This document shows, in pieces, positions 7,500 through 54,300 of a DNA stretch of 64,000 nt; position 1 is the stretch's first letter; each line of letters begins with the position of its first letter. Under the pieces are notes generated by a model. It saw only the letters and a list, made by a program, of their open reading frames with translations, made no database searches and was not told the DNA's origin. The stretch spans positions 14,370,564 to 14,434,563 of the forward strand of contig JALGQZ010000009.1 in NCBI GenBank assembly GCA_023105745.1. Reading direction: 5' to 3'. This stretch comes from Austropuccinia psidii (lineage: Eukaryota > Basidiomycota > Pucciniomycetes > Pucciniales > Sphaerophragmiaceae). The position numbers and the translations under genes are program-made.

Positions 7500-7985
7500 A
7501 TGTAGTACGGAAGCGTAAGGATAAGTCATGTTGGGAGAATGTTGAGAGGCACTCCGCAAGCATAAGGATAGGTGGTTTTGGGAGCATGTCGGGAGGGCAC
7601 CACACAAGCGTAAGGATAAGTGGTGTCGGGAGGGCAGTACACAAGTGTAAGGATAAGTGGTGTCGGGAGCATGTTGGGAGTGCACACCGCGAGCGTAAGG
7701 ATGGTAAGCAGTGTCGGGAGGGCACTACACAAGTGTAAGGATAAGCAGTGTCGGGAGCATGTCGGGAGGGCAGTTGAGCGAGCGTAAGGATAAGTGATGT
7801 CGGCAGCATGTCGGGAGTGCACTCCGCAAGCGTAATGATCGTAAGCAGTGTCGGGAGCATATCGGGAGGGCACTTGAGCGAGCGTAAGGATAAGTGATGT
7901 CGGGAGCATGTCGGGAGTGCACCACGTGAGCATAAAGATGGTATGGGCGGGGGTGTGAAAGCGTAAGGAGTGGTGAGGACGGAGA
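7500..7985. repeat. Minisatellite 2 (GTCGGGAG...CAAGCGTAAGGATAAG)
   Basis: Degenerate tandem units of roughly 35-60 bp combine GTCGGGAGCATGTCGGGAG with CACAAGCGTAAGGATAAGTG. The long minus-strand frame across 7441-8199 is a repeat translation rich in Pro/Leu/Thr/Tyr and is not a credible protein. The core is shared with minisatellite 1. Confidence 0.85.
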
Positions 7986-9290: not shown

Positions 9291-10810
9291 AAAACTGACT
9301 GCATGCAGTCTTTTAAGCAATGGGATGAACATTAATGCAAGCTGACTTAACTCTATCACCAAGAACAATCAAGTATCACGTACAATGCTTTAGATAGGCC
9401 TACTAACCTGGCTTGGTAGAAGAACAAATAAAATAAAATACCAAAATGCAACTGGCTGAATAATAAGCTTGGATTTAGATCAGGGAGAGTTTAAACACCA
9501 AAAACTGACATTCAATGTGGTTATGATCACATCCAAAGGCCTCTTGGACGTCAGACAGTGGCTAATACCTCATACAGAGGCGTTTCAATCGTTTCCGACG
9601 CAAACTATTACCTCTAGGACCCAGTAAAACAGTACCGTTCACTAAAACCACCCACCCGATGAAAATGAAGTTACTGTACCTTACAGTAACGTACTGCACA
9701 GCCAAAGCCACTTGTGAAGCAAGTGAAAGACACTTGAAGTGCCAGTACCTCCCCTGGTGTGGCTGATTAATTATTGGTCCTTATCTAACAATCCTACTGC
9801 CCTTGACATACTCAAAACACCTCCCCTGACTAATTAAAAGTCAGTAGTACACCACTTCGTTGAGTAAGGAGGAGGAATCACTGTTCAACAAAAAAAAATA
9901 ACCTAAAGTGACTATAGATGTCACATAAAGCACCAACAGCTTAAAAAAGTAGCAAAACAACATCAACACCTAGTAGAAGTGTAGAAGGACTCTCTAGTAG
10001 TCAAAGGCACCAGAACCAACTTACTTATAAGTGGTAATGAGGGTATAGGAATCCATAGAAACTCACCTGATTAACTTTCCAGCACCCTAAAGGGTGTTGG
10101 AGCATCCCCAAACAATAAGCTAACCTATCCAAAGCTTCTAAAAGGGATTAAGGGACTTATCAACCAAGTGCAAAAAATGCAAAGAGGTTTAGAGCACAAT
10201 AAAAGTGCTTATAAAGGAATTGTTTATATATAAGCAATAATTAAATAGATAAATAAGCAATTATAAGAATTAAAAGAAATGTAAAAAAGGGGATGGGTAG
10301 TAAAACCCATCTAGAGGTCTTTTCCAAAAGAAAACAGTACCCAAAGTGGTATTAAGCCTCACTTGGGATATACTAGCTTAACATAGCCTGAATTAGACCT
10401 CGAGAGGCAGCCAGACCACCTCTTCAGCTAAAATCAGCAGCTCAACTTCATGGAGACCACCAAAATAAGTTCAAACCATACTGGTAACTTAATTAAATCA
10501 ACCGTACATCAATAATAATAACAATAGTAGCTAAATATATAAATTAGCTACTTTTATTACCAAAATTTTTTAATTTGAGTTACTAATTTTTCTTTCAAAA
10601 AAATGCAATAACTAAATCAAAAAAAAAAAACCAATACTAATAACAATAATGATAACCATAATAATAATAATAATAAATTATTATTAACATTTGAATTTAT
10701 GCTACAGGGCAACAAATAAAAAAAGAGTCCTGAAAAAGACTTAAAACTGTTTATTTTTATTTTTCTTGTTAAAACTGGATATTACTGATTTTTTTTCTTT
10801 TGATAAATTT
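9291..10810. repeat. Diverged copy of the spacer seen at about 42.3-45 kb
   Basis: Several blocks match the interior of element A in order: ATGTGGTTATGATCACATC at 9537 (also 43,247), CAACAGCTTA...AGTAGCA near 9888 (43,397), and TTTAGAGCACAAT...AAAGTGCTT near 10,190 (44,060). One unit of the class II structured motif lies at about 10,725-10,750, preceded by GCTACAGGGC at 10,701. A perfect 9-bp hairpin (GTTACTGTA / TACAGTAAC) is at 9670-9690. No coding region. Confidence 0.55.
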
Positions 10811-35280: not shown

Positions 35281-35728
35281 ATAACCTCAACTTCAATAAA
35301 AAAAATCAATTAAATTACAACCAATTGAAAAATTATTATCAACTCAAGAATACAATTTTGTATAACAAAAACTGGATTCAAATAATCAAAATCAGGCAAA
35401 ACCATCATCTCAAAAATCTGAATCATCAACTCACTCTGACCATTACTATTATCCACCCAAGCAAGAAACAGAACTAGGGGAGGAATCAAACAAACATCCC
35501 AATTTCCCAATTGCAAAACCAAGAACCAATAAAAGGGACTTGAAGGTTGTGGAGAAATTTTTCCTTGATCTCCTTCAAAGAAATAAAATCAATAACTCAA
35601 CACCAAAATAAAAGGAAGAAATAAAGAAATCAAAAATGGATAAACCTTAATCATCAAAATTACCTTGTAGTATTGAAGAAAACCAGGAAGAAAACCTTAA
35701 TGAAGAAACTGTTGAAGGACAGGAAGAA

Positions 35729-36925
35729 ATGTCTTCAACAGAGAGACTGCAGCAGAAGATGCTAGAAATGCAAGCAGAATTACTAGCACTAATCAAAAAG
35801 GAAGGCAAAAATAAATCATCAAGTTATACTCCACAAAATAGCCCATTTGAAGAACAAACTACCCTTCCAAGATCATTCAGGCAGCATGGATCACCTTCAC
35901 CTTATCCTAGACCCATGGCCACATCAACACCTTATACAGAATAAAGACAAAGTACCTTACCAAGAAGAGTCAACATTTCTTTCCAAATGCCAACTCCATT
36001 ACATCAAGAAAATCCAAGAAACACTAATCCAATAGTGAAGATAAGAGCCAAGGACTATAACTTGTGGTTTGATGGAAAGGATGTTGAAAGATTCATCAAG
36101 AAAGTTGAAAATATTGCAGAAATTGAAGGAGCAAGTGCTAGAGACATTGCAAGACAAATAGCATTTTGGACAAAAGATTAAGAAATCAGTTATCATATTG
36201 AAGGAATGCCAGGATATGAAACAGCTGATTGGGATCAATTGAAAGTGGATATGAAAAGAAGATGGGGAACAGTCTCACCTGAAAGAAGATACAGATTATC
36301 CTCAATCACTGATTTATTCACAAAAACTCAACAAGAAGGTGGAATAAGAAACATGACTCAATACAGAAAATTTATTGGGGAATATGAAGCAATCATCACT
36401 TACCTCAAAAGATACCAATATATCCAAGGTGAGATCAATCATAACCAGGAAATATTGGCCAGCCTTTCCACTAGTGTTCAAGAATCAATTTACAAAGAAA
36501 TAATTAAATACAGAGCTATGGTCAAAGCCTTGGATGGAGCTTACATCATACCAAGATTGGATATTTTGAAATTATACATCGAACAAGACTTGGAGGCCAA
36601 GGTACTGATTCAACAAAAGGAATTTTCTAAACCAAAGCCTCCAGAAAAGAAAACAAGATTTGAGGATGAAAGTTGGATGATGTTTTAAAACAAGTAAAAG
36701 AACTCACCCAAAAGATCAAAAATCCTCCACAACCAGAACCTCAGCCAAGAAATGAGGGAAAAGAATCAGTTAAAGAAGTTTCAAATCAACTTAAAAGCCT
36801 TTCAGAAGCAGTGAATCCACCAAGAAGGAACTGGAAAAACAATCAAGAGCAAATATTACCTCAAAATAATCAGCCATATAGGCCAAGGAATCCCTTACCA
36901 CCATTTTCATCTAGTTACCAACCAT
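35729..36925 (+). pseudogene. Element A gag, N-terminal and capsid part
   Basis: Starts MSSTERLQQKMLEMQAELLA, a coiled-coil-like segment, with stops at 35,942 and 36,179 and a frame change at about 36,675. Capsid-like landmarks: IRAKDYNLWFDGKDVERFIK, WDQLKVDMKRRWGTVSPERR, and YIIPRLDILKLYIEQDLEAK. Linker KKKTRF-like basic and Pro-rich sequence follows. Family assignment rests on position and the downstream zinc knuckle. Confidence 0.7.
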
Positions 36926-36939
36926 AAATACCAGCTCAA

Positions 36940-37330
36940 ATGGCTCCAAGACCACCATTTAAGTGTGTTTACTGCAAGGAAGAAGGTCATACAGAAACTA
37001 GATGCACTCACCTTGCTGAAGACTTGGACAAAAGAATTGTCAGAACCCAAGGAGCATCTTACCTCTTCCCCAACTATCAGAGAGTACCTATGGAAGGAAA
37101 TGAAAGTGCCAAAGACATAGTCAGGGCCTTTGCAAAAGAACAAGCAGAACTCAACAAGAAATTCAATGAAAAACCTACTGCAAAACCAAAACCAGAAGAA
37201 GAGATTAAGCCCACTGAAAGAGATCAGATGATAAAACAACCTCAATTGCTCATGTTGAAGATTGGTCAAATTGGAAACCACCTACCTTTTCCTCAGCCAA
37301 TGACCCTTTTGAATCACACATTGGATTAAG
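36940..37330 (+). CDS. Element A gag C-terminus with zinc knuckle
   Basis: CVYCKEEGHTETRC is a perfect CX2CX4HX4C nucleocapsid knuckle, followed by a helical acidic/basic tail (DIVRAFAKEQAELNKKF). A frame change near 37,240 leads into SSANDPFESHIGLRQTKQRM in the next phase. Confidence 0.75.
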
Positions 37331-37346
37331 ACAGACAAAACAAAGG

Positions 37347-38560
37347 ATGGAAAGACAAGCCCAAAATCAAGAGCCAAAGAAGAAAGCAGAAATTCCAGGA
37401 ACTTACATTGAAGAAGAAAAGGAAGAAGAAAGAGTAATAATTCCCACCAAATGCCAAAATTCAAATATTCCAAAACCAGACCAGCCTGAGGAGGAGATTG
37501 AGAATATTGCCAATAAGATTGAAGATGAGGAAATTCCAAAAGAAGAAAAGAACCTCAGAAAACCGCAAAAGAAAAAAGCTGAAACTAAATTGGAAATTGA
37601 CAAAATTATTAAGAAAATTATGCAACAAAAGATCAACCTTACCATTGAAGAAATCTTGAGGATGTCACCAAATTTTGTCCATAAATTACAAGAATTATCA
37701 GAAAAACACAAGGAAAAAATTAAATCACTCAGATCAATGGATCTTCAAGAAAGACTATTAACATTTGGATTCAAAGAAATACCAAATCCCAAGATTCATT
37801 ATGCCTGTCCTTTGGGATTTATGGAAAGGAAGAATATCCTATCAGAGTATTGGTGGACACTGGTGCAGAACTCAACATTATACCAGAAAAAATAGCAATC
37901 AAAGCCTCACGCACAACAAGAAATCTTAACATGAACCTCAGGGGAATTGGAGGCCATACTACTTCATTCGTTGCACTATCAGAATTTACTCCAATAATTT
38001 TGGCTTCAGGTGAAGAAACTTAAATACACTTTTTTATTGCCAAATGATCTGTCCATACAGTATTTGGAAGACCTTTCTTGGCAGACAACAATATCAGACT
38101 AGAATTTTCCCATAAACAAGGTAAGATACTCAGTTATCAAGAGCCTGATGGAAGAAGATTATGCATGCCAATATGCAAGCCTCAAGCACTTGGATGGCAA
38201 ACTGGACCACCTAGAGGAATGGATTTATGCAATATGGCAACATTGGTCAGAAATAACCCAGGAAAGAAGGATCAAAATGCAAAAAGAGACAATACCATAA
38301 TCAATTTAACCCAGAAGACCCAAGAGTTATCCATATCTCCAAAAAGTGATGAATTTGGTCAAGATTTCCAAAATACCCAATGGCCAAACAACCTCAAAAG
38401 ACAACTTGAAGACTCAACCTTTGAAGATGAATTACCAAATATAATTTACAAGCCAATTAACAATAATAAAGAAACATTCCAAATTTTGGTGGATGGAAAT
38501 GAGAAAATACATGGAAACCCTTTCAAACCTAAACCCAAAAAAGAAGAAAGTCAGATTTAG
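37347..38560 (+). pseudogene. Element A protease region
   Basis: A 182-codon charged frame (to 37,895) precedes the protease. The active site VLVDTGAELNIIPEKIA lies at about 37,846-37,896 in another phase, and the second lobe (HTVFGRPFLADNNIRLEFSH) leads into the frame 38,078-38,560 (PDGRRLCMPICKPQALGW). Several frame breaks. A retropepsin would process Gag-Pol. Confidence 0.8.
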
Positions 38561-39251
38561 TGAACATCATGAGCTCTGAGATGAAGAAACTATCAATGAA
38601 ATAGAAAAAGACCTCAAAATTATGGAAGAAAGAGACAAAAATTTAAAAGACACATACCATATCAACTTCTTGGACAGACCATTGAACAACCAAGAAGAAC
38701 CTTATGAATGGCAACTGGAAAACCCTGAATTTATCCAGCAACCTCCCAATGAAGAGGATGAAACAGAATCCATCTTATAAAATGAATAAAATTACATTTA
38801 CCTGCCATACATCACCTTTGAAGACATTTATGGGGATGAAGCTCAAGAAATTTTATGTGAAGATAAATACTTATGTCACCTTCCAGGATCAAACTTGAAC
38901 AATATCCAATTCTTAGATTTATTAATTGAAGAGGGAATTAAAGGTAACCTTGAAAATCAGCTCTGGGATGAAATATTTGAAATGGACACACTACCAAGAA
39001 GAGGACTTTACTTCAACCAAATTTGGTCCCAGTGGTACCTTGGATTGAATGGATCAACATACCAAACTGGAAAATTGAAATGGGTTGGAGATGGATATAT
39101 ATTCATTGATGAAGACCCATGGTGGTCAGAATTTCCAGCAGAACCAGAAATTGAGGAAAGAAATGACTTTGTGGAAGCCCTCAAAGACCTGACTTTGGCC
39201 AGGTTACTCAACAGACACTCACCTTTCCCACTTGAGGGAGCTCAACTTTGA
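38561..39251 (+). CDS. Element A unknown domain, island 1
   Basis: After degenerate coding sequence (PYITFEDIYGDEAQEIL near 38,800), an open frame 38,895-39,251 carries FLDLLIEEGIKGNLENQLWD then EIFEMDTLPRRGLYF and a Trp-rich stretch, ending EALKDLTLARLLNRHSPFPL. It sits between protease and RT where most Ty3/Gypsy elements have nothing. Island 3 repeats this domain. Function unknown. Confidence 0.6.
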
Positions 39252-39354
39252 ATAAATCCAACAAAATCAAGATTTTTTCTTTAAAATGTATCAGTATCAC
39301 CCATAAAATGTATCATTAGTCTCTTTTTTTATTTATTTCATTTTTTCTCTCAAA

Positions 39355-39384
39355 GGGCAGTGACTTCCTGCCTTAACAAAGAAG
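39355..39384 (+). ncRNA. Class I pseudoknot-like motif, unit 1
   Basis: GGCAG-TGACTTC-CTGCC-TTAACAAA-GAAG. Stem 1 pairs GGCAG with CTGCC; loop CTTC can pair with downstream GAAG. Units 2-5 have CCTC with GAGG, so both partners changed together. Confidence 0.5.
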
Positions 39385-39469
39385 ACATTCATCAACAAAT
39401 TATTTCTTAAAAAATAAAAAATAAGAAATTAAAAAAAAAACTTACAAAAATATATCAATCACCTCCACC

Positions 39470-39805
39470 ATGGCCAATTCACCAATTTTTGGATCCTATG
39501 GGAAAGAATTAATAAAAGAAGACCAAATTATCAATGAAGAACTTCATTGGTCACCAGAAGATGAATATTTCAATAAAGAGAACCTTTGGCACTTTAAGGA
39601 TACTTCATCAATATCAAGAAACCAAGAAATTGAAGAAATCAAGGAATTGCTGAAAGTTTTGGAGGTTTCTGACAAAACCAATGATCAAATTACTCAAGAA
39701 TTAATGGACCAATTCAATTTCAAACCATTAATTCCCATCTTGAAGACAAATAACAGCTCTAAAAATCAAAAATCAAACAAAATAGTCAGATTTAAACTTC
39801 AATAA
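39470..39805 (+). CDS. Element A unknown domain, island 2
   Basis: 111 codons, ATG in good context (CACCATGGCC). Segments LHWSPEDEYFNKENLWHFKD and KNKIVRF-like basic end. Flanked on both sides by spacers with class I motifs. In related rust elements, from memory, similar sequence forms part of one long polyprotein; here it is a separate frame. Function unknown. Confidence 0.5.
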   Translation: MANSPIFGSYGKELIKEDQIINEELHWSPEDEYFNKENLWHFKDTSSISRNQEIEEIKELLKVLEVSDKTNDQITQELMDQFNFKPLIPILKTNNSSKNQKSNKIVRFKLQ

Positions 39806-39810
39806 TCACT

Positions 39811-40123
39811 AGGCAGTGACCTCCTGCCTTATCAAAGAGGAATATCAATCCTCATCAAATCAAATCAATAATTCTACTCACCAATAAAAAACACAATAAC
39901 TAACCATAAAATTACGAGGCAGTGACCTCCTGCCTTATCAAAGAGGAAATTCAATTTTCAACCAAAAATAACCAATTTGTCTTACCCAAAATCAAGCATC
40001 ACTAGGCAGTGACCTCCTGCCTTATCAAAGAGGGAAATAATTTCTTATCAATAAAAATCACCAATTTCACTCACCCAAATCATAAAAATCACAAGGCAGT
40101 GACCTCCTTCCTTATCAAAGAGG
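39811..40123 (+). ncRNA. Class I pseudoknot-like motif array, units 2-5
   Basis: Units at 39,811-39,840, 39,917-39,946, 40,004-40,033 and 40,094-40,123, spaced 87-106 bp. Consensus AGGCAG-TGACCTC-CTGCCT-TATCAAA-GAGG: stem 1 AGGCAG with CTGCCT (one mismatch in the last unit), stem 2 loop CCTC with GAGG. Sequence between units is diverged AT-rich DNA. They occupy the whole spacer between islands 2 and 3. Confidence 0.55.
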
Positions 40124-40241
40124 AATATTCAAATTCTTACCCAAAAATCAACATCCAAAACCCATTAAACCTATCCTCAAACTAGTTTGATAAATAAAAT
40201 ATTCTCAATCATTATTACCTTAACACTCCAAATACTTCAAA

Positions 40242-41024
40242 ATGGAATCATGGCCATTACTTGATGAAAATCCCTGGTCAATGGACACAGATATCAGCTG
40301 GCTAGAAGAAAAAGAAGTCTAGGCAAATTATGTTAATCCTCAAGAGTTAATTGAAAATCCTGACTGGTTCTTGAAAATAAAACTAGAACCCTGTCCTAAT
40401 ATTTCCACCATAGTCCTTCCATAAATTGAGTTTGAGGACATCTTCAAAAAAGAAAAACTACCATCAGAAAATATCATACCTCATCCATGGAAAGAATTAC
40501 CTCGATTCAACCTTGCAAAGTATGAATTCTTGGATTTACTGACCTGGGATGGAGTTGAAGGCAACCTTGGAAACCCATACTGGAATGAAATATTTGAAAT
40601 GGATGAACACCTCAGGGAATCATTATTTTGGAAAACCTGGGAATGCCAAGACTGGTTCAACCTTCAGGATTTTGAAATTAAAAATGGGAAAATAAGCAAG
40701 ATCTCAAGAAGATATACTATAAAAAATTCCGCCTGGAATTGTCACTGGGAAGAAACCCTTATACCAGCAATATTCAGCCTTAAGACTGGTGTAACAGAAT
40801 TAAATACAGAAGAATGGAGTTCTTTCTGTCAAAAGTACTTGTTTAAAAGTCTAAAAAGAGATAAATGGAGGGGAGGTAAATTTCTCAAACAAGAATTAGT
40901 GAAGGAAATACTTGGCAAAGGAATTAATTTAAAAAAGAATTGCCTGCTAAGTCCTCAATTCACTACTTCTCTACTAGCTTCCTTAGAACTTTTTATTTTA
41001 AGTCAATCCTCCATATATAATTAG
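40242..41024 (+). pseudogene. Element A unknown domain, island 3 (paralogue of island 1)
   Basis: Begins ATGGAATCATGGCCA; stops near 40,319 and 40,424, then open 40,530-41,024. KYEFLDLLTWDGVEGNLGNP then YWNEIFEMDEHLRESLFW and ECQDWFNLQDFEIKNGKISK match island 1 (FLDLL, GNL, EIFEMD) but it has a different C-terminal half. A duplicated, otherwise unknown domain. Confidence 0.6.
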
Positions 41025-44000
41025 TCTATCAAAAAAATATAAATAAAAAAATAAATTAGCTTCAAACCAAATAACTTGTGTAAAAAAAGGATAACTTACA
41101 TGCTATTATATTTGATTTCTTATATAAATTAATAAAGCCTACATCTCAATTAATTCAATCATTTGGATTTTCTTTATTGTTCCGATAGAAATTATATGAA
41201 TTACACTTAGCAGAATCATCATCTTGATATGCTAAAATGATAAAAACACTAATGGAAATATCATAACAAAAAAAAATCAATCACAGAATATCATTTCAGC
41301 TTTATTATTAGTTAGTCTTATGATTTTAACATTTTTCCATTTTAGTACTTCATTGCCTTATTATGTTATTATTTTAAATATTTTCCTGCTTTATTATCTT
41401 ATTATTTCACTATTTTATTATTTCATTATTTTACTATTTTAATATCTTAATATCTTGATATTTTTAATTTTACTATTTCAATGTTTTATTAATTTTCTTT
41501 TTATTTTTTTATCCTTAAAAAAAAAGGAGAAATTGACTAGAGTTTTTTTGGGTCTCCGAGACCTGATTAATAGCAATTTTCAAAAACAAAAGTCTTGTGT
41601 CAACTAAAAACATCAACATTATAAAGGAGGAATTACACAACAAAAATATGACATGCATATCAATGCGATTAAAAAGATTTTTTGTTTTCAGAGACAAATT
41701 AGTATATCAAAGTAAAATTAATATGACAAATGGGCTCAACAACTAAATTTTCATTTCCAATTGCACCAAGTTTCTCTAAGAAGGGACTTGGGATGTATCG
41801 CTTAAGCTCAATCAATCCTATTTGATCTATTGTCTAACTTAAATAGGTATCTAACTTGATGATTAAAAAACTAGCTTATTTTGTTTTTATTTTTTAAAAA
41901 AAAAATAAAAAAAAATAAAAGGGAAAAGAGGGACAATTCGAGCAAGAGAGGGGGGGTATTTATAGTTCCCCAATGTTTACACCCTGGAGGTAGCTCAAAC
42001 CGGAGATTGGTAGGCTTCACCAAGCACATATAAGTGCTAAAAGCCTTTACTTCCAGTATATAATCAATAATTTGCAGGAACAGTTATGACAGCTCCTTGG
42101 CCTCCTCCAACACATATACCGAGAAAAAACAAAACTAAAAACAAACAGGAGAGAGAATGAAGGCTTTGACAGCTTCAACAAAAAGAAAATCTTATCAAGT
42201 TACGACCACCAGAACAATGCACCATGTGAGTCCCTGGCTGCAGTACACACCAGTCTGTGCACAGGCCTTGATAGCCGAATTCCTCCGAAACAAGATTTTT
42301 TTTACATATTTCTTTGAAAGAAAATGAAATATGTGATGATATCAACAACTAAACTAATAATTACAATACTGTACTCAAGAACCACATGCAGTCTTTAAAA
42401 AAATGGAGCTACGACAACAGGCAAAGAAGCTGGCAGGAGCACTACACCAAAGGAACAAGCGAGGATAAATTAATGGGGTCATCACCAGACTTTGGGCACT
42501 GAGGAAAGCACTATTGACGATTTATTTTGATTCTATTGGTGGAATTAGCTCAGTTTGGTGTTACTGTGGAATGCTAAGATCACCAAAGACACAAGAAACA
42601 AGGTTTATCAGCCGCACACCTTGGCATCTTAAAATAAAAAAGAACAAATCACGTGAAACAACAAACTGGCTTCCAGCAGTAAAGTGGCATAAAAGCCCTC
42701 AAGTTCCTCATTATCAGCTCTGATAGCTCCTCCGACATGAATATTTGACAGAAAACAACTGACCAATCCAATTTGGTCTTCCATCATGAAAGCTATTGGA
42801 GGAGTTAGTGCTAACATAATGAAAAAAAACACCCTTCTTAATGCATCAAAGGAAGAATGAGAAGAATTTCATCACAAAATAACTTTGACATAAGGAGCAA
42901 GGCAATTTTGCATTAGTACCTCCACAAGCGACTTGAAATCAATTCAGAACCTTAATACAATTACAAAAGAGTTCCAGTACATGCAATGCATGCAGAAGTT
43001 TAAGCAAGAATAATTTCGACGACAGCAGGTGGTACATGACAGCTGCGAGTCAGCTTAACTTTATCACCCAAAACAAGCATGTACAGTACTCTACCATGTC
43101 TGATGCTTTGGGTAGCGCTATTAGTTTGGCTTGGTAGAAGGATAAAGAAGATAAGTCACGATTAAACTAGCCGGAAAACAAGCTGTACTATCAAAACAGT
43201 GTATTTAGATCGGAGGAAAGTTTGAACACCATCCACTGACAGTCAATGTGGTTATGATCACATCTAAAGACCTCTTGAAGGTCCGCAAGTGATGAAGCCT
43301 CACCAAGAGGTATTTGAACTGTTTCCGAAGGTCACTATCAACTCCTGGAACCTGTAGGCCAGCCCCAAAACAATAAAGGCCTTTAGAAAGCCTCAACAGC
43401 TTAGCAAAGTAGCAGGAGAACACCAATGTCTAGTCAAAGGGTAGCAGGACCCTATATTTTTCAAAACTAATGTAAACGACTCACTTTAAAGTATCCAAAA
43501 GGGGGCATTCAAGGTCTACCAACAAAAAAATAACCCACCCAATTCAACTTGAAGGTTTTCGGGGGAATATCTCAATAAACGACTAAATTTTATAATCCTA
43601 CCTATGACCCATTGAAAGGGGAGAACAATCAACCAAAGTGACTTCATGGATCACTAAGGGGATACAGCAGAAACAGCTGCTTCTGAGCAGTCTAGAGGAT
43701 TTTACAGCATCCCTATGAGTAAAGGAGCTCTTCCGATCAATTTTTAAGCGACCTGGAGGGTTTTGAATGATTTTCTTTACAGTAAAATGGTAAACCCAAA
43801 GCTTTTCAAAAACTTTGGAACACCCTGTGAGCAGGAAAAAGCCACGCGAATTCAATGCAAGCTTTACTGGGGGTATATTAACACCCACAAGAGCTGAAAT
43901 AACTCACCCGATGAGGCTATGAAGCCTCTAGTGGTTGATAATCAACTAAGAGATAGATTCAGGGCTTAGCCCTACCTGAATTATCAAATACATTGCACTA

Positions 44001-44180
44001 AAAAAAAGCCACTTACAGCACTTTCAATAGGATAAAAAGGTCTCACCCGAAGCTTATTAGAGCACAATTAAAGTGCTTTTAAAGGAAATTGGAGTTGGGA
44101 ACTAACCCACCCAAAGCATGAAACAAGGTTCAAAAACAATAAATAGATGAAAAATAAAAAAACAAAATTAAAAAAAAAAG
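41025..44180. other. Noncoding AT-rich spacer of element A, homologous in part to 9.3-10.8 kb
   Basis: No ORF with recognisable content. 42,300-44,100 shares ordered blocks with 9,291-10,810. Local hairpins include GTTGA-TAA-TCAAC near 43,936 and ATTCAGG...CCTGAAT near 43,955-43,983. 41,340-41,520 is T/A-rich with repeated TTATTATTT words. Confidence 0.5.
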
Positions 44181-46365
44181 AGCCCTCAGCATGGCTTGAA
44201 ACTGCTTGGTTTTAATTTTATTTGAATAATATTGCCTCTATAAATGCTGATATTATGTTTTTAATTTGATACAGGTATATCTTAATGAGAAACAAAAGAA
44301 ACAAAAAAAAGTATATATATATATATATATTTCATGAATTAAGGAAGTTGAAATAAACCAAAAATGAGTCCTCAGCAAGACTTAAAACTGCTCATTTCTC
44401 TTTTGCTCCATTTTTTAAAAATATGATGACTGATCTGTTTTTTATGATTTTATTAACCAATCTTTTCAATTTTGACTATAGTGATTATAAGAAACAAAAA
44501 AAAAAGTCCTCAGCAAGACATTAAACTGCTGGTTTCTGATTTTATTTTTTATCTTGACTCTTTATTTTACTGATCTGAAAATGATTTTTTTTTGATTTTT
44601 TACTGGGGTTTACAATAAATTAAAAATAAAAAAGTAAGAGCCCTCAGCAAGGCTTTAGCCTGCTTGTTTTGCTTTTGTTTTTTTTTGTTTTTTTGATAAT
44701 GTTGGCTAATTTTCATTTATTGGCCTTTAAATTACTAACATTTCTTTTATTTTAAGTAAATTCAATCAACCAAGAGTCCTCAACAAGACTTCAAACTGTT
44801 GAATTTATTTATCTGTTTAGTGTTAATGTTATTTTTTTACTAATTGTTTTTTTTATATATATAAAACAAATGATGATAATGATTAATATATATATATATA
44901 AGAATACAAATAAAATACTTATTTATTTTTAATCTTACCCAATATTTCATTTAAATTTACTGATGATTTTTTTTACAAAGGCCTTAAAAGGAATAATAAT
45001 AAAAACGTACTCAGAAAGACATTAAACTTCTGGTTTCTCCTTTTATTTCAAATTAACAAAAGAAAAAAAAAATATTTTTATGTGCTACAGGGCTATAAAG
45101 GACAATGCAATGCCCTGAGCAAGGCATTAAACTGCTCAAATTTTATTTCTTATGTTTTTTTACTGATTTTCCCTTTAGTTTAATAATTAGAGGAAATAAT
45201 GAATAAAAAAAAGAGCCCTCAGCATGGCATAAAACTGCTTAATTTCATTTATTATCATGATTTAATTAATTTGACTAACCATGTTTTTTTTATGCTGCAG
45301 GGCTACAAACAGTAAAAAGCCCTTAGCATGGCTTAAAACTGCTTAGTTCTTTTATGAATTATAATTCTGATTTTTCAATTTGCTAATTGATTTTTTATTT
45401 TGAAATTCTACAGGGCTATAAGTTAAAAAAAAATAAAACCCCTCAGCATGGCTTTAAACTGCTGGTTTTGTTTATTTATCTTATTAAATCTGTTTATTTT
45501 TTATGCTACAGGGCATACAAAAAAAAATGTCCTCAGCAAGACATTGAACTGCTGGTTTCTGATTTTATTTTTTATCTTGACTGTTTATTTTACTGATCTG
45601 AAAATGTTTTTTTACTGGGCTTTAAAATAAAGTGAAAAATAAAAAAAAGAGCCCTCAGTATGGCTATAAACTGCTTATTTTATTTTATTTTTCATTCTTA
45701 CTGTATTTTTTTTGGTTATTAAATTAAACTGACATATTTAAATTTGGATATGGCTACAGGGCTATAAACAAAAAAAATGTCCTCAGCAAGACATCAAACT
45801 GCTGGATTTATTTTGATTTTCCCCTTGATATTACATGAAGATGACATATTCATTTTTATGTGCTAAAGGGCTATAAATGACAATGCAAATCCCTAAGAAA
45901 GGCTTGAACCTGCTTTTTTTTATTTTTTATTTTTGATGCTTTTTCTTATATTTTATAATATATTATACTGACATATTTTATTTTGAATGCTACAGGTGTT
46001 CATCATGAAAATATTTCTCTTATCTTATAGGCTTAAATGTGCTTTTAAAATGAAGATGAGTCCTTAACAACACCCTAAACTGTTTAATTCAATTTAAAAC
46101 TTGGCTTTGAAGATAAATCAAAACCAAAATTATCAACAAGGAATCAAGTAATTATCAAGAAAAAACAAGTATATGGTCCTTGGAAAGACCATAAACTGCC
46201 TCTTCAAATGTCAAAAACAAATCACTAAAATTATCAACAAGGACAAAAGCAAAGATGACACATGGTCCTTGGAAAGACCATAAACTGCATATTTAAATAT
46301 TAAAAAAAAGTGGACTTAACAAGGACTATAAAAGGATGATAAGTCCCAGGCAAGACTATAAACTA
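44181..46365 (+). ncRNA. Class II pseudoknot-like motif array, about 18 units
   Basis: Units every 80-180 bp: stem 1 5' arm, loop CTCAGCA(A/T), stem 1 3' arm, AT-rich linker ending AAAC, then TGCT. Stem 1 pairs vary but match: ATGTC/GACAT (45,529; 45,777), AATGCC/GGCATT (45,109), ATGGTC/GACCAT (46,173 and the next unit), AGCC/GGCT (44,181), AGTC/GACT (44,775). Loop AGCA can pair with TGCT; AACA with TGTT (44,782) and AGAA with TTCT (45,013). Most units are preceded by GCTACAGGGCTATAAA or a variant. Exceptions: stem 1 fails at about 46,061 and 45,888. No coding frame. Confidence 0.6.
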
Positions 46366-47850
46366 CCTAAGAATTAGGGGCATATCCCATTCATGATCTC
46401 AAGATTATTCTATTTATTTATCATCTTTATTATACTTTTCCAAATATTACAACAAGAGCCATTCAATTGGCTTGATTTCTTAGCTCAATAATAATTAAAA
46501 AAATAAAATAAAAACTTTACATCAAGTATTTTTTGATTTTATTTTTTTAAAAAAAAAAATCTATTTATTTGAAATATTTCTTCAATTACAAGAAAGTGAT
46601 TTGAACCTGTTTGAAAAGAAGAAGTATTTGTGCCATCAAGGCATTAATTGAACTCTGAAGGAGCTATTTGTATTAAAAACTCATAAATTGATGTCATAAT
46701 TTGGGGAATTTACATATTAATAACACCTCAATGTGATATTTATTCCTAAAGGAATTTGAAAGCCCCCCAAAAAGCAAACAAGAGTTTTTTTCAACTGTAC
46801 AAATTTTTGATTTCACTGTTTATATTTTTTAAAAACTCAAATGCAGTTATGGGTAACAGAAAATCTGAACCACAAAGGGGATGGACTTGAAATAAAGTCT
46901 GAGTCACAATGATGATTCCAAAAGGAAGAGTTGTGGCATCATAAGGGTCATTATATGAATGAAGGACTCAAATTATGATTATTCAGCTATGTAATATTAA
47001 TAATAAATACTCTAAAGAGCACCAATTTTTGCTGATTGGAACAAATTACCACCTTCAACCAAACAGTTCCATGATATTAACTGTGATTCAGGTTTATTTC
47101 TTTTAAATTGTTATTTTCACTCAGATATCTCACTTTATGGTTATTTTATACTTAAATTAAAAAAAAGCAACTTATTATTGAATCATAATTAAAATAGAAT
47201 TATGTATATTTACTGTATCATTATTTATCCTCATCAAAAGCACTATAAAAAATAAGGGGTGGGTAAACTTATTTCTTACACTATCCCTTATAGTGGAAGT
47301 TTTTGGGGAATGAGAACATATCCTCTTCAAAATTTGAAAACCAACTCAAGATTTTTAAATGCAGAGGGGGGCCCTGATCCAAACAAATATTATTGAAACA
47401 AAAATATCAATAAATTAATATTAAAATCAATTTTAAATCACCTTATTATTAAATTTTTTTATTTTTCATTTCTTTATAACAGGTATAATTCAGGAATACA
47501 AAAGAACAAAAGAACCTAAATTATTTTGGAGAAATAGCAAGAAAATTGGGAAACAACCCATTATAGGAAAATTATTCACAATACTGAAAATAAAGAACAT
47601 TGTTTATGAAGAAAAGCAGGAGTTCCTTATGGATTGACCTTTGGACAGCACAAGAACTTGGACACTTCTTTGATTCTGGATTGAAACTCATTTGGAATTC
47701 AAGAATCATTGGTCAGGATTTATGGACTGAAGGATGACCCAATGGATTAATTATGGACTCAGGACTCACTCAACATGAAGGATTAACAAGATGATGTACA
47801 ACACTCAAATCAAATTGCCCTTGGGATTCTAAAGAAGATTGAAGACTCAA
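46366..47850. other. AT-rich spacer within element A
   Basis: No gene. 46,900-46,960 (AGTTGTGGCATCATAAGGGTCA) loosely resembles the solo LTR near 22,800, and CACTATAAAAAATAAGGGG near 47,230 resembles its TATA region, so an old, diverged LTR may lie here. Confidence 0.35.
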
Positions 47851-48345
47851 GAGGTCCTCAGCATGACACTAAACTGCTTCCCCTGTGGACTTGGGCAGGG
47901 AAAATTTTAAAAAAAACAGCCAAGCAGCTGGAGGGGATTGTCCTAGTCAGGAGAAGTGCTGAAGGACCATCTTTGTCCTCAGGATGACAATAAACTGCTC
48001 CCTTTGTGTAACAGGAACAAGGGGTTTCACAGGTGTTTAGCATTATCAAATTGGCCAAAATGAACAAAGTGAAGTCTCAAGCCATCAATTAAGACAAGAA
48101 AATTCCTTATCAAGAAATAAAACAACCAGAAGAATCTTGCACCAAGTGGGAATCATGAATATTGAAGAATAAAACAAGAGTCAAGTGGAATCCAAATTGA
48201 AGCCCAAAGGAGCTCAAGGATCAAGATAAGCCCTTGGATTAGGCCAGGAGGTCCTTGCATGACTTAAACTGCAGGACTTGTATACCTGATATACAGGGGT
48301 TACACACCTAGTTGTAGGTCCTGCATGACCTTAAACTACATTTTT
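47851..48345 (+). ncRNA. Class II motifs, four further units upstream of RT
   Basis: Units near 47,854 (GTC/GAC, AGCA/TGCT), 47,973 (TTGTC/GACAA), 48,248 (GTC/GAC, GCA/TGC) and 48,316 (AGGTC/GACCT, shortened loop CTGCAT). They lie just 5' of the RT-containing frame starting at 48,439. Confidence 0.55.
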
Positions 48346-48438
48346 TTATGGAAGAAAGAAGAAAGAAGAATTGTGAAGACCTCAATATTTCAGGACACTA
48401 GCAAGTTCTTGGAAATAATTAAAAATCACTAATTGAAG

Positions 48439-49565
48439 ATGGATCACCAAATTTTAGCAGCCAAATATAAATCAGTCCTGAAGAAGGTGAGACCAGTCAA
48501 TGAGCCAATGCCTCAAGACCTTAAGCCACCTTTGGAAAGACCACCTTTGTCAAGAGATCCTTATGAAACACCCTTATCACCAAACCCACCTATATTTCAA
48601 GAAACCTTCAAGGTCACCCATTATCAAATGAAGAAATCAATTTACTCAAAAATGTTATTACCTTAAGGGAAAAAGCAATAGCTTTCTGTGAAGAAGAAAG
48701 AGGGTTACTCAAACACTCATATGGAAAACCTTACAAGATACCAGTAATACCTCATGAACCTTGGCAGAAGAAACCTATTCCCATTCCCAAATCAATTTTG
48801 CCTCAGTTTACTGAATTAATCAGAGAAAGAATCAGGACTGGACTCTATGTGCAATCCACCTCAAGCTACACCAGCCCAATCTTTTGTGTGGCCAAATCAA
48901 ATGGGAAACTCAGAATTGTCCATGACCTTCAAGAACTCAACAAAGTCACCATCAAGGATGCTGGCTTACCACCTCATATTGAAGTATTTGTAGATGCATT
49001 TGCAGGAAGAGCATGCTATGGACAAGGAGATATCATGGGAGGATATGATGAAAGAGAATTAGATGTCACTACAAGACCCCTCACTACTTTTGAAACACCC
49101 CCTGGAAGGATGCAGCTCACAAGACTACCCCAAGGAGCCACCAACTCAGTAGCAGTATACCAAGCCCAAATGACCTGGATAGTTCAAGAAGAAATACCAG
49201 AAAGTGTAGGAATTTTTATTGATGATGGAGGAATAAAAGGACCAAGATCACTTTACAATCAAGAAACACTACCAGAAAACCCCTCAATAAGAAGATTTAT
49301 ATGGGAATATGCCATAACATTAGAAAGAATTTTATTCAGAATTGAAGAAGCAGGACTGACTATCTCAGGATCAAAGTTTGCATGCTGTGTGCCAGCTTTG
49401 GACATAGTAGGGCATGTTGTATCATTCAAAGGAAGAACAATCTCAAAACAAAAGATCAACAAGATTCAAAATTGGCCAACAACTCTTAACAAGAAGGAAA
49501 TAAGGGCATTTCTTGGACTTTGTGCCTATGTAAGGATGTTCATTGAAAACTTCTCACAAGTTTAA
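48439..49565 (+). pseudogene. Element A reverse transcriptase
   Basis: ATG 48,439 (MDHQILAAKYKSVLKKVRP); a frame change near 48,640-48,670, then open 48,798-49,565. RT landmarks: SPIFCVAKSNGKLRIVHDLQ, MQLTRLPQGATNSVAVYQ, and the catalytic motif as FIDD (GIFIDDGG) at about 140-143 rather than YxDD. Thumb region FKGRTISKQKINKIQNWP follows. Stop TAA at 49,563 within a conserved stretch (ENFSQV-stop-SPLRRLT). Confidence 0.85.
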
Positions 49566-51360
49566 TCACCACTCAGAAGGCTCACCAGAGAAGATGTTGA
49601 CTGGGATTGGGATCAAAAATGTGAAGAAGCTTTCCATAAGCTCAGAAGAATAGTTGGAGAAGAAATAACTCTCAAGAAATTAGATTATGACAAAGGATCA
49701 GGAAAAATTAAGCTAGCAGTAGATTCAAGCTACATTGCTGCAGGAGCAGTACTCACTCAAGAAGACAAAGAAGGAAAAGACAGACCAGTATTATATGAAT
49801 AAATAACTTTTTCAAAATTAGAATCAAAATGGTCACAACCCAAATTGGTACTCTGTGGAGTTGCAAGAATTCTCAAGAAGCTTTAAACAATACTTTGGGG
49901 ACAACATTTTGAATTACAGGTTGATGCCAAGGCCTTAATTGAAATGATAAACACCCCTTGCTTACCCAATGCCCCCATGACAAGATGGGTGGCTTTAATT
50001 CAAGTATTTTCCTTTGATTTGGTACACAAACCAGGGAAAACTTTCACTATTCCAGATGGGCTATCCAGAAGACCAAAAACCTCAGAAGAAGAAGATGAAG
50101 ATGCACCAGAATTTGATGAAGAAGAAGATTGGATCAAGCCACACCCTGGATTTGGGGCTAAGACTATAAATTCACTCAATTTTTCAGGAATAGAGGTACC
50201 AACCAAACAAGAAGGATTTTGGAAGAGAATGCAACAATACTTAAGTACAATGAAAAAACCACAATCAAGCAAAGATAAAGAGTTTAGAAGGATAAAAAGA
50301 AGGTCATCCAACTTTTTATTGGAAGATGGCCAGCTTAAAAGGAGAAACAACCTAAACCCCCAACTAGTGATTTCAAGTCAAGAAGTTCAAAGCTACACTT
50401 TAGAATCACTTCATGAAGACATGGGCCACAGAGGGGAAAATGAAACTTACAGAAGAATTAAAGCAAGATTTTGGTGGGAAGGAATGAAGAAATCAGTAAA
50501 GAAATGGGTTCAATCTTGCGTAGCCTGCCAAAAGAGAAGTCAAAACTTACAAAGAGAACAAGGAAAATCTACAGAAACATCCACAATCTTTGAAAGAGTC
50601 AGTATGGATTCACTCCATATCAAATCTGGAAGATGGAAGTATATGGTTGTGGCCAGGGATTATTTTTTAGGTTGGCCAGAAACAGTTGGACTAGTCAAAT
50701 TGAGAGCAAAAGCAGTTGCAGAATGGTTCACCTCACAATGGATATGCAGGTATGGCTCACCAAAGGAAGTAACTGTTGATGGGGGGCTAGAGTTTGGAAA
50801 ACAATTGCAAGATGCAGTAAAGAAAGCAGGATCAAGGATCAGAGTCACCACACCTTATTACCCAGAGTCTCAAGGAATGGTTGAAAGGGGCCATAAGCAA
50901 CTCAAAGATGCATTAGTCAAGATGTGTGGAGAAAATGGAGGAAAATGGAAAAAATATCTACCTTTGGTTACATTGGCTGACAGAATCTCAACTAAAAGGA
51001 CAACTGGTTTCTCACCATATGAACTCCAATTTGGACAGCTTCCAGTATTACCAATTGACATTGAAACAAAAAGATTTTTGGAAGTAGAATGGCACAAAAT
51101 ATCAACAACTGAGGAATTACTGGAAGACAGAGCTAAACAATTAGAAGGGAAAGAAGAAATGAGAAGGAAAGCAGCAGAAAAACTCAAAAAAAAGGGAGGA
51201 CTCAATGAAATTTTGGGATAGCAGAATGGCACACCAACTAAGATCACCACTCAATCCAGGAGATTTGGTCCTGGTTTACAACAAAGCAATAGAAACTAAT
51301 TGGGGACTACTTTTCAAAAACAAATGGAATGGACCCTACAGAGTAATCACTGGGGGAATC
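49566..51360 (+). pseudogene. Element A RNase H and integrase
   Basis: RNase H (LAVDSSYIAAGAVLTQEDKE) with TAA stops at 49,799 and 49,885; the main frame 49,944-51,221 begins in RNase H (LIEMINTPCLPNAP; DGLSRRPK). Integrase zinc domain: HEDMGHRGENETYRRI...SCVACQKR. Catalytic residues: D in VSMDSLHI, D in VTVDGGLEF, E in PESQGMVERGHKQ. It breaks near 51,215 and a tail (MAHQLRSPLNPGDLVLVYNK, NKWNGPYRVI) ends at about 51,360. No chromodomain is seen. Confidence 0.88.
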
Positions 51361-54300
51361 TGACTTGGACCTGCCTGCAGGTCCCTTACAAGTATATTGA
51401 CTTATATCTCAAAGTTAACTCAGCATTAACTCATTTCATATCTCTATCTTTATCTCCAAGCTAACTCATCATTAACTTATGTCATATCTATATCTTTATA
51501 TCCAAGTTAACTCTGCATTAACTCATGTCATATCTCCAATCTTATCTCCAATTGAACTCATCATTATCTCATGGAATATTTACATTTCTATTTCCAAGCT
51601 AACCCATATTTGACTCATGGAATATCTTGATGTTTATCTCAAAGCTAACCTATCATTCACTCCAGTCATATTTTCATTAGTATCTCAAAATGGAATTATT
51701 CTTTACTTGGCTTACATCTAAGCTTGTTAATTATCTTTTACAAACTCTTTACTTATCACTGATGTGATTAGACTGGGTATTTCCTACAGTGCTAGGGCAA
51801 TCCTGTCAGTTTTCTTTCATTTAACTCAAAACTAAGTCAGATTGTTTCCAAGTATGTATCACCAAATTATCTCAAGGCTTACTTTCATTTTCTCTGAGTC
51901 TGTACTCTCATTTCAACTCAAGATTAATTCAAAATTTCAAATTCACTATATTAAAGTTTTAATATCTTTGTTTACTATGCAAGAACCCAGGACTCCATAT
52001 ATATATACAATTTATAAATGATAATATTAAATTCAACTCATCATATACACTTCTGAAGTACAAAATGATATCATAATTTATCCTTTGATAGAATCAGCTA
52101 TAAATTTCATTTTATAATATTTTGTGTTTCATTTAATATGGTTTGAAGCTATCATTATATAAAATAGTTGTTCCTATTATCCCGCAATATTACCTATATT
52201 CAAGACACAGTATAATTTAATTTCAATTTTAACTTTCATTCAAAAACATTTCTTTTAGTTGCAAGACTTATAGATATTCATGTAGATTGAGTACCCACTT
52301 GAAATTCATTTTTTAATACAGAAATGAAACCAATTTTGATTCTCTCTTGATATATAGCTCTATAAATTTATAGTAATTATTCATTCTATTGATAATCCTA
52401 ATTTTTCAGGATTGAAGTATTAATTAAGAATCAGAGTTAACATAAATTTATAAGTGTTCAGAAATGATTTTCAATTTGGATGGAATATTAAAAAATTAAA
52501 AATGGTAGAATTTCACACTTTTTGTGTCCTAAATCTCCAGGGAATAAGGTTTTAAGATCAAATAAACATGAACACTTTTGAAGAATTATATATAGAGAAT
52601 ATGATAAGAATGTAAATATATGTAATAATTTTTTTTTAAATTTTTGAATAATATGAATCAATTTGAATCTCATGCTATTTCCTTCTTTTGTTAAATAAAA
52701 ATTCTGGTTTTATTTATTGCGTTTCTATTGAAAAAATCTATTTAAATTCTCAGTATTTACTGTGTTTTTACTTCTTTCCAATCCTTAACATATTTATGTT
52801 ATATCTCCTTGAATGGCTACTTTGCAAATTGGATTGAATGGACTCAAATAAGCCTTATTATTTGTATTTTTTATTGAAAACTTATCAATCACTGTTTTTA
52901 GGTATTCAAGTGAGTGAATGATTAATGACTTTAAGAAAAAAAACTATATTTTATCTCAAAGTAAAATACATAAAATTCAATCCTGCCCCCCACTTTTCAC
53001 CAAAACTCTATTGAAGTAATTTAAAAATCTGTATTTATTAAATGATTCAAAATTAAATTCAAGGGATTTTCAAATTCTTGAATAACTTGCTAAACTGAAT
53101 TTTTTTTTTAACTTAACTTGGGATAAATTTACTTCAAAAAATTGATAAAAGTAAGATCTCTGGAATTTTTGGTTTAAACTTTGTGGATTGACTTAAATTT
53201 GTTTTCTTCAAAATATTGAATATTTTGAGCTTTTATGTTCATGGAATATATTCCATATAGAAGAAAAAGGTCTTAACAGAATACTGAAAATATTAATTTC
53301 ATGGTAAATATTTTATTCCTAAACTGATTATTTTGGGTAACTAAGTAATCAAAGAAATTTTCTCAGTATTTACTAAATTGGGGCAAATTATTACAAAGTA
53401 AAATTTCAAAAATTAATCCTTATTTTCTCAAGTTTAAAGAGCTCTTTGAAATCATTTTTTTTAAATTTTTCATTACTTTTGGTAAGTGAAAATTTAAATA
53501 TTATTTGAATTCAAATTACAAAAAACCTTTATATCTTAGCAAATTCATTCAATCCCTTATGTGGAATTATGAAAATGTTTCAAATTCACACAATACCTGT
53601 TTTTTAAAATCAATTAAAAAGATTAAAATGGACTTAATTATAATTCTGGCTATCTAAGATTCCTTTAAAATTTGCAATATCTTTCTTTTGTGTGAAAACT
53701 GTTACAATTGGGAAGCTTTCAATCCTATATTTTTTAAAGGGGGAGGCTATCAAATAATTGATATAAATATTGATTTCAAAAAGTTTTTTTCAACAAAAAT
53801 GTGTCATGTGAGAAAGGAAGTCTGAGAGAAGGTATAATGACAAATCTTTATGCATTCTTTTTGTAATCCCACAAAAGAGGTCTGTTTTGAAATTGGGGAC
53901 AAATACCACTCCATTAATTTTTTTTGGAAAACATAAGGTTAACCAAATTGAGTTTTCAATTTATTTTTATTAATCCTCTTTTGAATTTTCTTTCAAAGAC
54001 TCTCATCAAGAATCTTATGGCCAAATCAAACCAAACCCAATTTTTGTAATACAGTTTGGGCCATTTGAAACCAAAACTTGATTCAGATGATTCTCAACGC
54101 CCTGAAAATATTTTCAAGTTAAAAAAGGCTGAATTGTACAAAAGCTCCCTTCACTGTTTGGAATTCAGGTGTGTGCTACAAATGGATATTCAAGCAGGGG
54201 ATTATGAATGATATTTAATTTTAATTAGTGTTTTTATATTTATTCACTTTATTTAGTATAAAGATCCTCACAATCAAGTGAATAAAAAGTTAAAAATTAA

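Follow-up and report, generated by a model that had tools for sequence, protein, structure and literature searches.

The 64,000 nucleotides of Austropuccinia psidii DNA analysed here (contig JALGQZ010000009.1, referred to as the window) carry, upstream of the reverse transcriptase (RT) of a retroelement, many copies of a short motif whose arms differ from copy to copy, and they raise the question of what structure these copies preserve and what it might do. A preliminary description had reported at least 20 units with covarying arms consistent with H-type pseudoknots. The repeated units are real and more numerous than claimed: a profile hidden Markov model (HMM) that knows nothing of base pairing picks out 22 in the window, 18 at 44179–46370 and 4 at 47851–48343.

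44179..46370, + strand: main array of 18 units, each an H-type pseudoknot of roughly 31 nt (profile hits, covariance-model hits and listing).
44179, 44365, 44503, 44637, 44773, 45004 (stem 1, S1, broken), 45109, 45212, 45316, + strand: starts of main-array units 1–9.
45436, 45526, 45648, 45776, 45887 (broken), 46057 (S1 broken), 46173, 46262, 46340, + strand: starts of main-array units 10–18.
47851..48343, + strand: pol-proximal set of 4 units (47851, 47972, 48248 and 48315; spacing 121, 276 and 67 nt in the window).

The covariance model that also matches the main-array units was trained partly on those same units. Incomplete pairing had been noted at 45,888 and 46,061; it recurs here in units 45887 and 46057, and unit 45004 is likewise broken in S1.

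The motif is abundant in the rust. One strict pattern has 899 exact matches in the 1.015-Gb genome, and its backward control has none. The sample comprised the window, 20 stretches of 9.9 kb around genome matches and four shorter flanks (L036–L043 lie outside the analysis), and all rust evidence comes from one genome and one high-copy family. The pairing-blind profile yielded 369 units (313 distinct) in 21 loci, with 8 to 28 per locus; these are the hits kept at an nhmmer threshold of E<0.05 from 395 at E<10. Median spacing over all units is 118 nt, and it becomes tighter toward the 3' end of the main array.

The fold predicted from these units is shown by covariation to contain an S1 with a GNC/GNC core, 5–6 bp long in the rust, a first loop (L1) of CU, and a second stem (S2) of 4–6 bp that closes in a nearly invariant A-U pair. 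One A/U linker and a third loop (L3) that ends in UAAAC complete this covariation-based model. By comparison, then, S1 and S2 cross and both covary, as in an H-type pseudoknot. The three highest-ranking pairs by mutual information (MI) with average product correction (APC) are S1 (8,19), S2 (14,30) and S1 (6,21), followed by (32,33), which lies outside the predicted pairs, and by S2 (13,31). Joint counts are 164 UA and 140 CG at 8-19, 250 GC, 32 AU and 15 UA at 14-30, and 219 AU and 47 GC at 13-31. The preliminary description had proposed R-scape as a check of significance. With our own approximation of it, a tree null on 252 rows (rows with >3 gaps removed, then duplicates), (8,19) in S1 (E<0.005) and (14,30) in S2 (E=0.01) are significant, while (6,21) (E=0.84) and the remaining pairs are not. 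We judge this null to be conservative because the tree was built from the very same short columns. The covarying arms of the earlier claim are thus borne out, with S1 and S2 pairs at the head of the list and two of them surviving the tree null.

Other tests point the same way. The S1 core is fully paired in 277 of 352 rows (mean 142.6, maximum 168 when 3' arms are shuffled) and the S2 core in 264 of 326 (mean 188.3, maximum 203); the 352 and 326 rows are those of the 369 that remained after gapped cores were removed. Among 75 distinct units, drawn from 190 gap-free distinct ones, the named pseudoknot pairs hold in 87.0% of cells, compared with 24–41% when the arms are slid by 1–3 columns, and none of 500 shuffles reached that value (mean 76.3). 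Two-sided changes were further counted over 1003 unit pairs from different copies with homologous flanks, the unit itself being masked; these pairs are not mutually independent. At (8,19) there are 23 such changes versus 2.0 expected and at (14,30) 9 versus 1.0, all from pair to pair. The counts are 41 versus 13.1 at (6,21), 26 versus 9.7 at (5,22), where just 9 are pair-to-pair, and 8 versus 3.4 at (13,31). The claimed joint change AGAA/TTCT does not hold up in the rust, since pair 15-29 does not covary (MI 0.017; 31 two-sided changes versus 21.4 expected, of which just 4 are pair-to-pair). S2 mismatches concentrate at this same pair (A-G 20, C-A 17, C-T 8; in L052, L059, L062 and others), and a GpC mutation bias could account for the clustering.

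Parts of the unit hardly vary. Among 369 rust units, C10 is kept in 369, A16 in 365, U28 in 368, U11 in 359, C27 in 359 and A24–A26 in 357–365. The stems vary while L1, the closing pair of S2 and L3 stay, which suggests a fixed tertiary fold in which the invariant L1 and L3 letters would make tertiary contacts.

Copies of the element locate some of this variation. The pol-proximal set lies about 1.6 kb 3' of the main array and has 4 units in 12 of the 21 loci, 2–3 in five and none in four. Its last unit carries S2 UGUA/UACA in 13 of 15 other aligned copies, the exceptions being L047 (UGUA/UGCA) and L062 (UUUA/UACA), together with the window (UGCA/UACA). In L052 the third unit shows a two-sided change, UGUA/UACA replacing UGCA/UGCA. 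The S2 mismatches of units 47972 and 48315 occur in the window copy alone among 16 aligned copies, and the L057 counterpart of broken unit 46057, matched by flanking text, is intact.

The earlier claim left RNA and single-strand DNA side by side. Within each of the 21 loci every profile hit lies on one strand. The strict consensus, identical to the exact phage consensus introduced below, occurs 141 times in the sense and never in the antisense direction in 219 kb of rust loci, and a fuller descriptor occurs 194 times in sense, with none in antisense and none in reversed rust sequence. At the pairs, G.U combinations (115) outnumber A.C (43), against an independent-column expectation of 259 and 177. 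Because the hits keep to one strand, the consensus is sense-only and G.U exceeds A.C, RNA is favoured and the DNA part of the claim is disfavoured. The comparative evidence gives good support to a predicted H-type pseudoknot that acts in sense-strand RNA. Selection on single-strand structure, as had been proposed, is indicated by covariation within the rust genome and, independently, within phage contigs.

The phage sequences came from IMG/VR, where the strict rust pattern matched 35 stretches. S1 arms, which that pattern leaves free, pair over ≥3 consecutive bp in 20 of the 35 loci, some of them near-duplicates and some with swapped arms (GAC/GUC), and a reading of the 35 matches as chance was rejected on this ground. 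In a looser phage pattern the middle of S1 and two S2 pairs are free, whereas the loops, the outer letters of S1 and one pair of S2 are prescribed. It matched at least 120 stretches; the reversed pattern matched 27 in the whole collection. Among the 122 distinct matches listed, the middle S1 position is paired in all 122 (AU 59, UA 55, CG 7, GC 1), and all three free positions are paired in 118, versus 1 of 27 for the reversed pattern. A variant with U15-A29 in place of C15-G29 also matched at least 120 stretches, and 89 of its 94 distinct matches listed pair at all three free positions; the reversed control belongs to the first looser pattern alone. Unlike in rust units, pairs beyond the 3-bp S1 core form in just 20 to 44 of 87 phage units. 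The fuller descriptor gave no forward and two reverse hits in the 27 control loci (237 kb), as expected from their selection. A GTDB scan returned 10 matches versus about 9 expected by rough arithmetic, and 7 of the 10 have ≥4 consecutive S1 pairs. When phage-contig regions were compared with named phages by blastn, L102 and L272 found named phages, L083 gave only short matches at its tRNA (best 5 of 24), and L086, L148 and L105 had no match. At the level of sequence, the loops and stem ends of the rust motif are thus shown to recur in many phage contigs, and the origin of the shared motif is either common descent or convergence.

The phage units have a preferred place. Context was counted on the paired matches listed (4 of 122 and 5 of 94 unpaired ones were dropped). 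An open frame of ≥50 codons ends ≤20 nt 5' of 119 of 207 distinct paired units, and in these the distance from stop to unit is exactly 6 nt, the commonest value, in 41 and 5–10 nt in 90. In the first set, 85 of 118 units have such a frame end within 40 nt; for random positions the figure is 318 of 2360. Spacing to the following start is loose (median 59 nt, n=92). Eleven of these 118 units lie inside a called open reading frame (ORF); of the other 107, a same-strand gene lies upstream in 98 and downstream in 92. Stops upstream of the units are TAA in 40, TAG in 7 and TGA in 4 of 51 checked, and flank positions -8 to -1 show no conservation. A tRNA gene lies within 220 nt 3' of 9 of the 118 and 6 of the 89 units. 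In Synechococcus phage S-CRM01 (129000–178563, 49.6 kb) one strand has five units, and both the other strand and the reversed sequence have none. ARAGORN places a tRNA end 4 positions ahead of the start of three of them (one of those tRNAs is predicted by ARAGORN only and is not in the record), and for two of these three the next tRNA lies 4 and 6 nt downstream; the other two units follow annotated coding sequence (CDS) ends by 6 and 8 nt. The unit of Staphylococcus phage B122 follows a minor capsid gene and overlaps the record's predicted promoter (BPROM). In phage contig L009 (12111–12325), an Rfam match to a permuted tmRNA encloses a unit. These positions show that phage units lie close 3' of coding-sequence ends and, in one named cyanophage, of tRNAs. 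Given the upstream anchoring, the loose distance to the next start and the use after both CDS and tRNAs, a device acting on the 3' end of the upstream RNA fits better than one acting on a downstream gene.

In the rust, the array stands inside what is probably a large, high-copy Ty3/gypsy-like retroelement, an assignment drawn from matches to RVT_1 and Integrase_H2C2 among the window ORFs (Pfam); no LTR (long terminal repeat) pair belonging to the array's element was seen among the window repeats. On the + strand, gag and protease (about 35.6–38.5 kb) are followed by accessory ORFs to 41.0 kb, a hypervariable region of about 3 kb, the array, and the RT-integrase from an ATG at 48439. Several frames are broken in the window copy.

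35650..38560, + strand: gag (zinc knuckle) and protease region, from frame translations; the domain reading is our own interpretation.
39356..40123, + strand: second array, units at 39356, 39811, 39917, 40004 and 40095 (S1 mismatch), of other sequence and the same topology.
39470..39805, + strand: accessory ORF B, whose TAA (39803–39805) ends 5 nt before pseudoknot 39811.
40242..41024, + strand: accessory ORF C region, frame broken in the window copy.
41025..44170, + strand: mosaic of hypervariable sequence that separates accessory ORF C from the main array.
44260..46000, + strand: 3'-splice-site-like elements in the spacers (CTRAY, T-rich, TACAG|G), often just 5' of the next pseudoknot.
48439..51363, + strand: pol, with RT and integrase; its own ATG lies 95 nt 3' of the last pseudoknot, and its frames are broken in the window copy.
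10724..10754, + strand: stray unit, adjoining a stretch (9.2–10.2 kb) related to the element's variable region.

The array does stand in a noncoding stretch, as had been described, and the same stretch also contains the second pseudoknot array and the hypervariable region, which measures 2.7–4.2 kb across 13 loci, the window included. Pieces of the latter recur in shuffled order among copies and at 9.2–10.2 kb of the window. The pol ATG is kept in 16 of 16 aligned copies, and an RNase H is provisionally assigned to pol from position and relatives. The window integrase frame is 81–94% identical, over 46–92% of length, to four of the best-ranking A. psidii MF-1 proteins (P0001, P0002, P0006 and P0030). 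Integrase or RNase H relatives P0074, P0076 and P0113 bear Streptomyces or Xanthomonas names and are possibly fungal contamination of bacterial assemblies. No relatives of the element came from an RT search of viral contigs or an integrase search of GTDB contigs. The relatives listed for ORF C (82 of 82) all come from A. psidii and have no precomputed Pfam domain, and a Pfam scan of one frame of the gag/protease region gave no match. Two of the accessory ORFs at 38790–41024 share a segment (38908 and 40525, 76% identical). A perfect 8-bp hairpin (GGACCTGC/GCAGGTCC) lies at 51361–51384, a few nt 3' of a pol-frame stop. Elsewhere in the window, tandem arrays at 1949–2684 and 7548–7922 share a core like GCGTAAGGAT, and repeat pairs between 11.7 and 34.1 kb resemble nested LTR elements (11.7–13.1 versus 32.7–34.1 kb, 96–98% identical; 15.3 versus 27.2 kb, 97%).

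Units of the second array have the form GGCAG-TGA-CCTC-CTGCC-TATCAAA-GAGG, with S2 CCUC/GAGG and a CUUC/GAAG (CTTC/GAAG) variant at 39356. The first clustered unit starts 5–6 nt after a TAA in six loci (the window, L045, L061, L059, L048 and L053); that this TAA is in frame with ORF B was checked in the window, and L053 was matched by text only. A strict pseudoknot scan of the window found no third repeated signature, save one pair at 15272 and 27228 that belongs to a 97% identical repeat pair.

We tentatively favour the reading that each unit may be a compact roadblock that guards or defines upstream RNA 3' ends. The fold would halt processive enzymes that approach it from downstream, chiefly 3'-to-5' exonucleases, and the RNA upstream of it would keep a defined, stable 3' end. 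Tandem copies between the gag and accessory ORFs and pol would form a strong, redundant barrier that might stabilize the upstream RNA or set the balance of gag to pol. What points to a 3'-to-5' exonuclease roadblock here is the placement after stop codons and tRNA ends. This reading is ranked first because it needs no lineage-specific partner and hence explains phages and fungus alike, and the variation in unit number among loci is what would be expected of a redundant barrier. A more far-reaching proposal, on which we place little confidence, is that the 26-nt pseudoknot common to phages and the fungal retroelement may be an autonomous 3'-end device, either a self-cleaving ribozyme of minimal size or a fold proof against exonucleases of every kind, with phages using single copies as punctuation and the retroelement using tandem ones.

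Several observations weigh against the roadblock. The main rust array follows no recognisable ORF end, and the 3'-splice-site-like repeats are not accounted for. Among the phage units listed, 88 of 207 have no qualifying stop or near tRNA, a link to tRNA 3' ends of the S-CRM01 type occurs in none of the 207, and 84 of the 107 outside called ORFs sit between co-directional genes, which makes an effect on the downstream gene possible. Where the phage patterns prescribe letters (in the loops, at the outer positions of S1 and in one pair of S2), conservation is imposed, not observed. Distinct arm combinations are only weakly above shuffles (fully paired S1 13 of 47, mean 9.1, maximum 16; S2 17 of 40, mean 11.8, maximum 20). 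Finally, across the pol-proximal 1.3 kb, variability in the units (0.016–0.031) is not clearly lower than in their flanks (0.018–0.039).

A translation element is a doubtful alternative: pseudoknots might pause, recycle or re-initiate ribosomes, or allow internal initiation of the accessory ORFs and pol on a polycistronic RNA. With 6 nt between stop and pseudoknot, a ribosome that terminates has the fold at its entry, and in the window ORF B, ORF C and pol are each preceded by pseudoknots, with an A-rich, length-variable stretch 5' of the conserved pol ATG. There are 181 ATGs in 38561–48434; to our knowledge, known internal entry sites are far smaller than the array. Some S-CRM01 units lie between tRNAs, where no ribosome terminates. 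After phage stops the frames are generally closed, with a median of 16 open codons in the 0 frame, 20 in -1 and 3 in +1 (n=51), though 17 of the 51 have ≥30 open codons in -1, compared with 6 in the 0 frame and 8 in +1. As these frames are mostly short, recoding by read-through or frameshifting was rejected as a general role.

The unit could also be an RNA processing site or a small self-cleaving ribozyme that separates parts of a transcript by a cut near its 5' edge, which we consider unlikely. Such a site would fit units that are anchored at their 5' side although the flank there is not conserved, and a distribution over phages and retroelements resembles that of known ribozymes. We know of no natural ribozyme as small as 26 nt, and no Rfam ribozyme family matched at the scanned units. 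Units do occur between tRNAs and within the permuted tmRNA match of L009 (in its intervening part, on our own reading), and phage theta ribozymes have been proposed, in passages of PMC10879173, to process tRNA 3' trailers.

The spacers bear on a further alternative, control of splicing or export by repeated 3' splice sites without donors, whose use pseudoknots would regulate in the genomic RNA. The spacers had been described as drifted, and anchored at the unit their identity is 0.315 versus 0.317 expected. This scoring makes the drift look too strong, as spacers lined up from the unit fall out of register wherever indels occur; the drift stands in a weaker form and the view of the spacers as fully random was rejected. 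Across 40.9 kb of arrays in 21 loci, acceptor-like sites number 99 in the sense direction; shuffles give 13.9 ± 3.6, and the reverse strand has 8. Sites resembling donors are scarce there (GTRHGT 1 versus 5.6 in shuffles, range 2–13; GTRHG[TA] 7 versus 16.4, range 7–27), which we read as avoidance of sense-RNA splicing; in the variable region of 13 loci GTRHGT occurs 6 times in sense and 50 in antisense, a count without shuffle control. Splicing control is nevertheless quite improbable. In the two loci inspected in full, the acceptors are mostly absent from the closely spaced last array units and from the pol-proximal set, and there is no splicing at phage units. An Ogre-like intron, which would have a conserved donor after the protease (PR) and an acceptor before RT, was rejected for splicing that joins 38121 to the start of pol, as this one donor examined is absent from 3 of 4 further copies. 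The TGCTACAGGGCT box had also been considered as an alternative partner of the unit's 5' half. A pairing role was dropped because AGGGC precedes C-type (57) and T-type (15) units alike, and a 3' splice site fits the box better.

High copy number and nearly invariant loops would suit a multivalent protein-binding array, either a Gag packaging signal or a decoy like a type III antitoxin, and tandem H-type pseudoknots do bind ToxIN proteins according to the part of PMC5086642 concerned. Such an array has a similarly small chance of being the explanation, since the 10 window ORFs scanned with Pfam hold no toxin-like domain and, unlike ToxI arrays, phage units are in many cases linked to the ends of genes. 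It is very improbable that the units are no more than a tandem repeat in decay, or a site working at the DNA level, with no function as RNA: many are broken and the tree null is significant for just 2 of 12 named pairs, but paired changes at 8-19 and 14-30 occur in homologues defined by their flanks, orientation is one-stranded and the motif recurs in phages.

These observations suggest a small, recurrent and uncatalogued RNA device. Phage contigs that differ in their genes have the motif at a preferred distance from gene ends, and in a fungal genome of gigabase size it forms arrays that reach 28 units per locus. An insert of 26 nt, together with compensatory mutants, would put its function directly to the test, and the motif is a natural example of a tiny RNA fold that has either recurred in different domains or been transferred from one to another.

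How does the family compare with known systems? At the gathering cut-off, Rfam 15 has no family for the units in the window or in the 10 and 20 phage loci scanned, save the tmRNA-spanning match in L009; the phage scans returned tRNAs and that permuted tmRNA. A permissive search of 39300–48420 gave four sub-threshold hits, all on the minus strand, and in L086 (2380–3130) two sub-threshold hits touch units. The open-licence literature (subscription papers and bioRxiv preprints lie outside this search) yielded no description of the motif. The A. psidii genome consists to >90% of transposable elements, mostly Gypsy, and the words pseudoknot and tandem are absent from the available text of the paper that reports this (PMC8063080). 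Two potential pseudoknots are mentioned for yeast Ty3 RNA in an excerpt of PMC11381356, and the T4 gene 32 pseudoknot is an operator 67 nt upstream of the gene's start (PMC3014915, in part).

ToxI and CptI consist of short H-type pseudoknots repeated in tandem, which have single-stranded tails (from sections of PMC5086642). The rust array is likewise tandem and built of short H-type pseudoknots, but no toxin partner was found among the ORFs scanned, and phage members often follow stop codons. The STAXI motif (RF01728), which is listed for Enterobacteriales, has two or more copies of a short pseudoknot, in many cases with UUCG loops (PMC2864571, relevant entry). It shares the short repeated pseudoknot, whereas UUCG loops are absent from the rust/phage consensus and the Rfam scans of the window and phage loci gave no STAXI match. 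HDV-like theta ribozymes are borne by phages, associated with tRNAs and folded as a nested double pseudoknot, with shown cleavage (portions of PMC10879173). The present motif is also phage-borne, pseudoknotted and tRNA-associated, and differs in its single 26-nt H-type fold, with one crossing helix in the pairs tested, predicted from comparison. Exonuclease-resistant RNAs (xrRNAs) are ring-like and block Xrn1 in the 5'-to-3' direction (parts of PMC5760640 and PMC7603331). The likeness is the compact mechanical roadblock, here proposed; direction and the ring-like fold differ, and the Rfam scans gave no xrRNA match. The tobamovirus 3' pseudoknot domain and luteovirus frameshift pseudoknots are tandem or minimal H-type folds with an A-rich L3. 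Compared by fold description alone, they differ in that phage stops are not generally followed by an open frame. Thus what is known is the H-type topology; what is new, and without its own Rfam 15 entry in the loci scanned, is a family defined by sequence and structure together.

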